Positions 23,749 through 26,065 of a stretch of DNA of 32,002 bases are shown here, piece by piece (within the stretch, counting starts at the first letter, position 1; every line of letters begins with the position of its first letter). Made by a program: the position numbers and the translations under genes. The notes under the pieces were generated by a model. That model saw only the letters and a list, made by a program, of their open reading frames with translations. It was not told the origin of the DNA and did not search any database. The DNA is taken from positions 1 to 32,002 of the forward strand of contig WRBL01000031.1 in NCBI GenBank assembly GCA_009784565.1, given 5' to 3'. Source of the DNA: Streptosporangiales bacterium (GTDB lineage: Bacteria; Actinomycetota; Actinomycetes; Streptosporangiales; Streptosporangiaceae).

Positions 23749-24267
23749 ATGCTGAGGATGCGTCCGGCGGGCAGTCAGGATCGCGATGCTGTCCGGGAGA
23801 TGATCAGTGCCCGGTGCGAGTGGATGGAGGCGCGGGGCCTGTCGTCGTGGCGGCCGCGCCTGGATGACCTCGTGGCGCAGACCGATAACCCCTGCGGGGA
23901 CGTGTGGGTCCTGGAACGGGACGGTCAGGTCATCGGCCGGACGACCCTGCAGGCGGACGCGCCGCCGCCGTGGGGGTGGACTGACGCCGAGCGGGCCGAA
24001 CCGGCGCTGTACCTGACGACCACGCTCACCGACCCCGGGCACCGGGACGTCAAGCCGGGCACCCTGATCGCCTGGTGGGCGGTCGGCCAGGCTGCGGAGG
24101 CCGACGCGGCCTGGGTGCGGCGCGACTGCGCGTTCACCGGGCTCGCGAAGTACTACCAGTCCCAGGGGTATGACTTGATCCGCGAGGCCGAGTTCAAGGG
24201 GCACCGGCTGTTCATGATGGCCCGGCGCGCGGAGCGGCTCGACCTCTCGGACACCTTTCACAGGTAG
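23749..24267 (+). CDS. GNAT family N-acetyltransferase
   Basis: MLRMRPAGSQDRDAVREMISARCEWMEARGLSSWRPRLDDL...VWVLERDGQVIGRTTLQAD...GLAKYYQSQGYDLIREAEFKGHRLFMMAR; 10-bp tail-to-tail overlap with the macrocyclase gene. Confidence 0.8.
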   Translation: MLRMRPAGSQDRDAVREMISARCEWMEARGLSSWRPRLDDLVAQTDNPCGDVWVLERDGQVIGRTTLQADAPPPWGWTDAERAEPALYLTTTLTDPGHRDVKPGTLIAWWAVGQAAEADAAWVRRDCAFTGLAKYYQSQGYDLIREAEFKGHRLFMMARRAERLDLSDTFHR

Positions 24268-25826
24268 GCAACGGCGGCCAGGTGCATGTCCACGACCTGC
24301 AGCAGCTTGGCGTGGAATTCCTCGTCCCAGGGCTTGCGGCCGATTTCGGCGATCGTGGCTTTCAGCCCGTCCGGGTCGACCAGGCCGTCGAAGAGGGGCG
24401 AGCCCCTGTCGAGCATCCTCTTCAGGATGGGCACCCCGTAGGTCTTCAGGGAGTCCTCGACCAGCCAGGCGAAGGACTCGCGCTCGACCGGGTTGCAGAC
24501 GTCGTGGCTGAGGCCGAGCGATTTCATCTGGCGGCGCTGGAGGTTCTTGAACTCGCGCCAGTCGACGGGGAGCTGTTCCCCGAGCCGGATCATGGCCGGG
24601 TGCGTGAAGGGGTGGACGGGCCAGATCCCCTCGCGCAGGAGCGGCGGCGCGCTGGTTTCCAGGGAGAGCAGGGTGATGGCGTTCACCTGGGCGGGCGGCG
24701 CGACCGCGTCGTCGGTGTAAGGCAGCGCGGCCCGGGCGTCGGGACCGAGCCAGGGCAGCCTGCCGGTGATGCGGGCGACCATCCCGGCCACGATGTCGGA
24801 TTCTTCCGGCGACAGGGCGACCATCTCATCGCCGCCGAGGCCGGTGACGAGGACCCGGCCTCCGTGCTGCCGGGCGAGTCCGGTGAGCTTCGCGAACGGG
24901 AGGAAGAGGGGTTCCTCGTAGGGGCTGATGAGCGCGCCGCGGACGCGGGGGCAGTCTCGGTTCAACGGAGGGACGTCGGCGCAGTCGACGGTGAGATCCG
25001 TGCCGCTGAACGGCAGGGATGCGAGGATCTGGGCTCGGCGACGGTCCTGCTGCGGTCGGCCGGGTCCGGTGACGAGCAGGGCGGCGGTGGTGACCTGTCC
25101 CGGCCAGCGGCAGGCGGCCCGGGTGGCGATGGTGCCGGAGTCAAGGCCGCCGGTCAGGTGGAACACGGTGGTCGCCGGGTCGAGGGAGCGCAGGTCGAGC
25201 GCGGCGTCGATCGTCGCGGTGAGGGCGGCGAGCACGTCGGCGCCAGGGGTGATGTTGCGGGGCGCGGCGTGCAGGGCCGGGTCGGGGTAGCGGATGTGCA
25301 GGGCGCCGCCGAAGGTGGCGGTGGCCCGCTCGGTGAGCCGCCGGATGCCGGTGAACATCGTCTCGGTCCCGTAGCGGGGCTGGTAGACGAGCAGTCGGGC
25401 CGTCTCCCGGGGGCTGAGCCCGCCGGCGTGCTCCTTGAGGCGGGCCATGTCCCAGGACCCGCGAAGGGTGCCGCCGTCCGCGGCCAGGTACAGCGGGGTT
25501 GTGCGGGCGGCCCCGGCGGTGACTGTCACCGGGCAGCCGGGCCGGGTCTCAACCGTGACGTGGTCAGCCGGGTGCGCCAGCGCTGCGGCCCGGGCACGGT
25601 CGTAGGCGTCTGGGGCGAGGGCCTGGACAGCAGGTTCGGGCGGGGCCTGGTCGGCGAGGCGCTCGCGGACGGTGATGAGCGTGCGGTCGCCGTCGGTGGC
25701 GGCGCACTGCTCGGTCATCGGATGGGTGAACGGGGTGACGTGGCCGGAGCGGTCGGAGGTGGCGTAGGCGGTGCCGGTCCAGGACCAGTCCGCCGCCGCG
25801 TAGGGGGTCAGGGCGAGATCGAGCAT
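24258..25826 (-). CDS. Asparagine-synthetase-like protein, macrolactam (lasso-type/RiPP) cyclase-like
   Basis: PPi-loop motif VFHLTGGLDSGTIATRAA; VLVTGLGGDEMVAL; no N-terminal MC glutaminase nucleophile; SD GGGAGGAA upstream of the ATG; 51-aa ORF immediately upstream. Confidence 0.8.
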   Translation of the reverse strand: MLDLALTPYAAADWSWTGTAYATSDRSGHVTPFTHPMTEQCAATDGDRTLITVRERLADQAPPEPAVQALAPDAYDRARAAALAHPADHVTVETRPGCPVTVTAGAARTTPLYLAADGGTLRGSWDMARLKEHAGGLSPRETARLLVYQPRYGTETMFTGIRRLTERATATFGGALHIRYPDPALHAAPRNITPGADVLAALTATIDAALDLRSLDPATTVFHLTGGLDSGTIATRAACRWPGQVTTAALLVTGPGRPQQDRRRAQILASLPFSGTDLTVDCADVPPLNRDCPRVRGALISPYEEPLFLPFAKLTGLARQHGGRVLVTGLGGDEMVALSPEESDIVAGMVARITGRLPWLGPDARAALPYTDDAVAPPAQVNAITLLSLETSAPPLLREGIWPVHPFTHPAMIRLGEQLPVDWREFKNLQRRQMKSLGLSHDVCNPVERESFAWLVEDSLKTYGVPILKRMLDRGSPLFDGLVDPDGLKATIAEIGRKPWDEEFHAKLLQVVDMHLAAVAYL

Positions 25827-25854
25827 CGGGTTCCTCCCGGGACTGGTGAAGAAG

Positions 25855-25896
25855 GCGCCGCAGGGGCGGGACCGTGACTTCCCTGCCCCGCGGCGC
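25855..25896 (-). promoter_or_regulatory. Strong intergenic hairpin between the 51-aa ORF and the cyclase (attenuator or processing element candidate)
   Basis: GCGCCGC(A)GGGGC GGG - 10-nt loop - CCC(T)GCCCC GCGGCGC: 15 bp paired with two single-base bulges; no U-tract evident. Confidence 0.65.
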
Positions 25897-25909
25897 GCGT
25901 AAGCGAGAG

Positions 25910-26065
25910 TCAGGTGATCGGGGTGTCGTAGGTCTGGGCGCCGTCGCTGGATCCGGCGACCTTCTTCGTCTCGTGGGCCTGGGCCGGCGTCTGGACCGTC
26001 AGCACGAGCGGCCCGGTGAACAGGCCGTCGACCGGCGGGGGCGCGGGAGGCGCGGTCGTGGTCAT
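25910..26065 (-). CDS. 51-aa candidate RiPP precursor peptide (not in supplied ORF track)
   Basis: Codon-by-codon translation: MTTTAPPAPPPVDGLFTGPLVLTVQTPAQAHETKKVAGSSDGAQTYDTPIT*. Nearly all codons end in G/C; AAGGAG SD just upstream of the ATG; immediately upstream of the cyclase gene on the same strand. Confidence 0.7.
   Translation of the reverse strand: MTTTAPPAPPPVDGLFTGPLVLTVQTPAQAHETKKVAGSSDGAQTYDTPIT

Follow-up and report, generated by a model that had tools for sequence, protein, structure and literature searches.

A putative RiPP module of an asparagine-synthetase-like enzyme, a precursor with a conserved Lys-x5-Asp pair and an exchangeable partner gene

Background

Enzymes of the asparagine synthetase (AS) family adenylate a carboxylate, which in AsnB is the side chain of Asp, and an amine then attacks. 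Several described systems resemble the locus analyzed here, which lies in a window of 32,002 nucleotides (the whole stretch of DNA that was analyzed) from a Streptosporangiales bacterium. Lasso peptide clusters (B1/B2/C) likewise combine an ATP-dependent macrolactam cyclase of the AS family with a short precursor that has a C-terminal core, and the Asp acceptor of lasso peptides is found 7–8 residues into that core. Unlike them, the window module encodes neither an RRE nor a protease; its family shows no general Thr at position −2, while it has a constant Lys at core position 1 and a cyclase clade of its own. Graspetides and microviridins contain Lys-to-acidic side-chain lactams made on a leader-bearing precursor. 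The same type of lactam is only predicted for the window family, and graspetides use ATP-grasp ligases whereas the window enzyme belongs to the Asn_synthase family (PF00733). Beta-lactam and carbapenam synthetases are AS-like ring-closing enzymes and are among the closest solved folds, yet identity is 14–17%, TM is about 0.5–0.6, and their substrates are small molecules rather than ribosomal peptides.

Albusnodin-type systems (NF033561 cyclases) are also small clusters of a precursor, an AS-like cyclase and a GNAT, and a conserved Lys of albusnodin carries an acetyl group (PMC9266682). However, albusnodin has albB, which the window module lacks, and the window cyclase falls outside the NF033561 clade. 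At L157, an NF033561-type locus within the window's own family, a protease-like ORF directly follows the cyclase, as judged by eye. A GNAT is associated with an AS-type cyclase in triculamin and lariocidin as well, in which Lys acetylation confers self-resistance (PMC13352647); the lariocidin cluster contains LrcB1B2 (PMC11451635), and the triculamin core is cyc(SKKSKPGD)GIRGKGVRG (PMC13192320). The triculamin-like core SKKSKPGDGIRGKGVRG is unrelated to the window core KVAGSSDGAQTYDTPIT. Identity with triculamin, considered on account of a match in Streptomyces triculaminicus (L042), was ruled out by core sequence. The known AS-like RiPP enzymes comprise lasso cyclases, the C-terminal amidases TsrC and ScdTA, and the nitrile synthetase PesC; none in that account is described with a K-x5-D precursor pattern (PMC13060819).

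Results and discussion

Precursor gene and cyclase

The original prediction held that an unannotated 51-aa ORF may be a precursor gene lying next to an AS-like macrocyclase. The ORF (Table 1) translates to exactly the peptide that had been proposed and is a real gene. Its codon-position GC is 0.63/0.60/0.94 against 0.72/0.53/0.92 for the cyclase, a Shine-Dalgarno-like AAGGAG sits 4 nt 5' of the ATG, and tblastn with the 51-aa peptide alone returned homologues 5' of other cyclases with E values from 3e-11 to 1e-8. A gap of 83 nt separates the end of the ORF from the cyclase start codon. A chance ORF was ruled out by homology, by coding bias and by the motif-blind ORF choice described below. The dN/dS-type signal was modest (pN/pS 0.17/0.37 against L035, none against L038) and carries no weight. 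No Pfam or NCBIfam model reached E <= 1 with the 51-aa precursor or with any of nine diverse homologues.

Table 1. Coordinates of the features of the locus within the window
Feature	Position	Strand	Basis
51-aa precursor peptide gene	25910..26065	-	ATG start, coding bias, tblastn homologues
Putative leader, residues 1-34, with conserved LF motif (L15-F16) and VQTP	25964..26065	-	Upstream-ORF comparison
Putative ring K35-V-A-G-S-S-D41 (K-x5-D)	25943..25963	-	Top residue pair in dereplicated precursor set
Putative tail GAQTYDTPIT, residues 42-51	25913..25942	-	Precursor comparison
Asparagine-synthetase-like cyclase, 522 aa	24258..25826	-	Pfam Asn_synthase (PF00733), E = 3e-7
GNAT-family acetyltransferase	23674..24267	+	Convergent with cyclase, overlaps cyclase 3' end; conserved partner
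Divergent GntR/UTRA regulator	26221..26973	+	Pfam GntR and UTRA

That the enzyme encoded directly downstream lacks the glutaminase Cys was also correct. Cys2 is absent, residue 2 being L, I or A where the relatives could be aligned, and without this nucleophile no glutamine hydrolysis is expected. The ATP-site residues D229/S230 and D333/E334 are kept in all 66 aligned relatives among the listed loci, and K427 is present in the window cyclase too. Membership of the AS superfamily is supported by both Pfam and fold. AlphaFold gave a confident model (pLDDT 92.7, pTM 0.91), with beta-lactam synthetase, TsnB9, carbapenam synthetase and AsnB as the nearest solved folds (11–17% identity); beta-lactam synthetase is the closest, yet TM is only about 0.56 and identity 16–17%. 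Against the asparagine synthase equivalog the window cyclase scored 22.7 bits (cut-off 267). Against the albusnodin/ikarugamycin cyclase model NF033561 it scored 21.2 bits in the genome search (cut-off 300 bits) and was not listed at E <= 1 in the profile search; weak similarity to this model was seen in 47 of 66 family members, and 13 of 66 reached NF033535 at E <= 0.01.

In a maximum likelihood tree, which is unrooted and in which the cyclase of Rhizobium binae (L180) forms a long branch, the window-type cyclases, including those of Bacteroidia, rhizobia and gammaproteobacteria, are split by a 100/100 branch from AsnB, B2-adjacent lasso cyclases and albusnodin-type cyclases. An ordinary AsnB identity was ruled out by this placement. 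Clustering with ordinary or beta-lactam synthetases had been named as a result that would refute the prediction; the separation from ordinary asparagine synthetases is borne out by the tree, while that from beta-lactam synthetases rests on fold and profile comparison only. Viral contigs gave weak local AS matches and nothing more.

Distribution of the module

Among 396 sampled genomes of the class, 17 contain a relative of the cyclase, and screening 85,488 species genomes yielded at least 80 loci. A short ORF with K-x2-[G/E]-x2-D near its C-terminus was located 5' of the cyclase at 64 actinobacterial or Bacteroidia loci among the matches listed. Proteobacterial loci carry a precursor as well, many of them on plasmids of Rhizobium and Bradyrhizobium. 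A precursor homologue lies directly 5' of essentially every intact cyclase relative inspected, so that the conserved short ORF anticipated upstream of orthologous cyclases was looked for and found. The relatives of the precursor span three phyla, Actinomycetota, Pseudomonadota and Bacteroidota. At six loci without a precursor (L068, L070, L071, L075, L077 and L097) the cyclases are truncated, with the GNAT still adjoining in most; these are decayed copies. At another locus without a precursor (L040) the sequence is masked with N. The criterion for a RiPP, a gene-encoded precursor conserved as a pair with an adjoining modifying enzyme, is met, in the absence of product mass or structure data.

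A family member is present in both Rhizobium sp. WSM4643 (L173, 5670-7500) and R. johnstonii 3841 pRL10 (L181, 4676-6023). In both cases the module sits on a symbiotic plasmid between an AHL synthase gene (near rhiA) and nifHDK, and the precursor is annotated as a hypothetical protein and nothing else. The location beside nif genes raises a testable question about symbiosis, and any biological function remains inferred. With annotations reading merely hypothetical protein and asparagine synthase-related protein, the family is easily overlooked. No description of it was found in the open-access literature; subscription journals were outside the search and prior publication is possible. The rhizobial papers found to mention asparagine synthetase concern other genes or leave the rhizobial family member unidentified.

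A near-universal Lys-Asp pair

Because the 64-locus precursor set had been gathered using the motif itself, the choice of ORF was repeated on coding bias alone. When the best-coding short upstream ORF was picked without regard to the motif, K-x2-[G/E]-x2-D was present at 60 of 66 intact-cyclase loci among the matches listed, whereas shuffles averaged 1.9 and never exceeded 8. In four of the six misses a farther ORF had been chosen though the motif ORF was nearer to the cyclase. The other two, L105 and L107, have K-x6-D; these are Rhodanobacteraceae (gammaproteobacteria), in which the spacing would mean an 8-residue ring. Precursors were also dereplicated at 50% identity and 5,200 combinations of residue pair and spacing were tested. 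The commonest was K-x5-D, in 17 of 19 precursors (next best 13, shuffles at most 11), the two exceptions being gammaproteobacteria with K-x6-D.

The pattern was proposed from the first loci, and the proteobacterial plasmid loci were inspected afterwards. It occurs in the precursors of Rhizobium leguminosarum type (IKGGKPGDMDKLDV), Mesorhizobium amorphae (PKVRLPGDSATLMYYL), R. binae (TKFLVRGDSARYRY), Bradyrhizobium (PKGPFPSDSANEGYL; EKAPFPNDSANQGYL) and Xanthomonas sacchari (MKPYLGDDSRWYSTQPGG). Existing annotation includes the ORFs of Rhizobium and Xanthomonas, while the four peptides from M. amorphae, R. binae and Bradyrhizobium were chosen by visual inspection. The LF-type motif of the leader, Lys1 and Asp7 are general features of the precursor collection. 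Core position 4 is Gly or Glu in the first (64-locus) set and free in the proteobacterial precursors. Ring positions 2, 3, 5 and 6 vary while the Lys is invariant, which fits a side-chain role for this residue. In the glycosyltransferase lineage the tail contains no further acidic residue, leaving the Asp of K-x5-D as the sole acceptor there.

With glutaminase chemistry lost, an Asp fixed and a Lys fixed six residues before it, a Lys-Asp side-chain lactam is the simplest reading. We somewhat favor the view that the cyclase joins the side-chain amine of Lys35 to Asp41 in a 7-residue isopeptide ring and that acetylation of the product by the GNAT follows, the bond itself being inferred. Under this model the precursor peptide, the AS-like cyclase and the GNAT would constitute a minimal RiPP module. 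No separate RRE protein would be needed for the cyclase to bind the precursor, and recognition probably relies on the conserved N-terminal LF segment, although this too is inferred. The enzyme would activate Asp41 by adenylating its side-chain carboxylate, the reaction that AsnB carries out on Asp. In place of ammonia, the amine on the Lys35 side chain would then attack to give the Lys-Asp macrolactam, with an expected mass change of −18 Da. The order of steps is likewise an inference: ring closure is proposed to take place on the intact precursor, such that leader removal would not be necessary for the ring step. The Lys may nonetheless be kept for another reason, as a protease site, an acetylation site or a point of docking to the cyclase.

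Weighing a lasso peptide and an amidated product

The main rival is an unusual lasso peptide, in which a protease encoded elsewhere would cut before Lys35 in trans and the alpha-amine of Lys35 would be joined to Asp41, giving a 7-residue ring threaded by the 10-residue tail. Lasso cyclases belong to the AS family, cores of 13–17 aa with a 7-residue ring and the acceptor at this position would also suit a lasso peptide, and an aromatic residue in the tail could serve as plug. If the core starts at K35, Thr33 of the window precursor is at −2 from it; within the family, however, Thr occupies −2 at only 4 of 64 loci, the residue being mostly Tyr. Searches of 12 genomes containing a relative found neither PF13471 (B2 protease) nor PqqD/RRE (PF05402) near the module, although some of the assemblies are fragmented, which limits what 'near' can mean. 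A standard lasso peptide with adjoining B1/B2 was rejected on this basis, and the absence of B1/B2 nearby agrees with what had been noted. B2-like proteases are encoded elsewhere in 9 of the 12 genomes, which would allow cleavage in trans, but G089 and G163, both estimated to be 100% complete, have no PF13471 match genome-wide, and G163 has no PqqD match either. The lasso explanation thus needs a protease that is absent from the module, it accounts for the Asp but would not require Lys at position 1, and the cyclases are separated from the B2-adjacent lasso cyclases at 100/100. We regard it as rather unlikely.

Less probable still is that the enzyme uses ammonia to amidate Asp41 or the C-terminus, or attaches some other small amine at Asp41, in which case the peptide would be an amidated product or a small-molecule carrier for the GNAT, methyltransferase or glycosyltransferase. 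There is precedent in AS-like enzymes that amidate RiPP C-termini (TsrC, ScdTA) or make nitriles (PesC) (PMC13060819), and the swapping of tailoring genes between lineages would be compatible with a carrier or an amidated peptide. Such a reaction is at odds with the missing Cys2 and consequent lack of glutamine hydrolysis, with the wide variation of the C-terminal residues, and with the constant Lys and Lys-Asp spacing, which it leaves unexplained.

The proposal of a precursor with an AS-like macrocyclase, possibly a minimal RiPP and not a standard lasso peptide, is supported by the conserved ORF and the separate cyclase clade, while its chemistry is inferred from sequence. As the chemistry is still inferred, a 'new class' remains a prediction. 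We consider the chances about even that Actinomycetota, Pseudomonadota and Bacteroidota share a new RiPP class in which a single AS-like enzyme, without RRE or protease, forges a K-x5-D side-chain ring between Lys and Asp alongside an exchangeable tailoring gene, the rhizobial version being located on symbiotic plasmids, where it lies between an AHL synthase gene and nifH. If true, the side-chain Lys-Asp lactam would be an additional ring chemistry for RiPP enzymes of the AS family, and a two-gene, RRE-free macrocyclase would be easy to test in E. coli.

Partner genes and regulators

The GNAT gene, about which the original prediction was silent, as it was about the Lys-x5-Asp pair and about members in other phyla, is a conserved partner. 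Its Pfam match is weak in the window protein and above cut-off in the homologue at L039. By clustering of neighboring proteins a GNAT lies beside the cyclase in 53 loci among the matches listed (35 plus, 18 minus), and it directly follows the cyclase in 46 of 64 intact loci among those matches. Core type tracks the neighboring gene: tails of the YDT/YDEI/YDS/VDEI type, to which the window belongs, pair with a GNAT (46/48), QGRFED/QGYRDEND tails with an ABC exporter (8/8), the GDHC tail with a SAM methyltransferase (4/4), and the RQRRKxG tail with a group-1 glycosyltransferase (2/2). What the GNAT does is inferred. Acetylation of an amine of the product could be self-protection, as has been reported for triculamin and lariocidin (PMC13352647), or tailoring as in albusnodin (PMC9266682), and in sister lineages the ABC exporter, methyltransferase or glycosyltransferase would take the place of the GNAT.

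Loci L101, L108 and L113 cover the glycosyltransferase lineage, with RQRRKxG/AQGKKNG tails in two Streptomyces, together with a Bacteroidia MAG that falls beside them in the tree and encodes a similar-looking ORF behind its cyclase. In Mesorhizobium sp. L-2-11 (L175) and R. binae the cyclase is followed by a phosphotransferase and a GNAT, and thus the GNAT association recurs in Alphaproteobacteria. The R. binae locus also has a GntR regulator.

A putative regulator from one of three protein clusters occurs within 2.6 kb upstream at 32 of 60 loci, versus 2 of 57 in the next 2.6 kb. One of these clusters has a clear HTH_3 domain, and neither of the others matches Pfam significantly. At many other loci a different divergent putative regulator occupies the position of the window's GntR/UTRA gene, and control of the module by the latter is possible but not shown. 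The linkage of divergent regulators, together with the lack of any exporter in the module neighborhood of the GNAT lineage, could also be read as pointing to a short regulatory peptide that is never cyclized, with the AS-like protein acting on something else. We give this the least credence of the explanations considered, and the fact that precursor core type, cyclase subclade and tailoring gene are tightly co-conserved speaks against it.

In the closest relatives (L035, L036, L037 and L040) genes for an M20 peptidase and for a small putative regulator lie directly 5' of the precursor; both are missing from the window module. The latter is flanked by two DUF72-type paralogues (22601-23644 and about 26980-27776, plus strand), 4.1 kb apart and with 72–78% DNA identity over parts, an arrangement that suggests insertion of the module beside a duplication.
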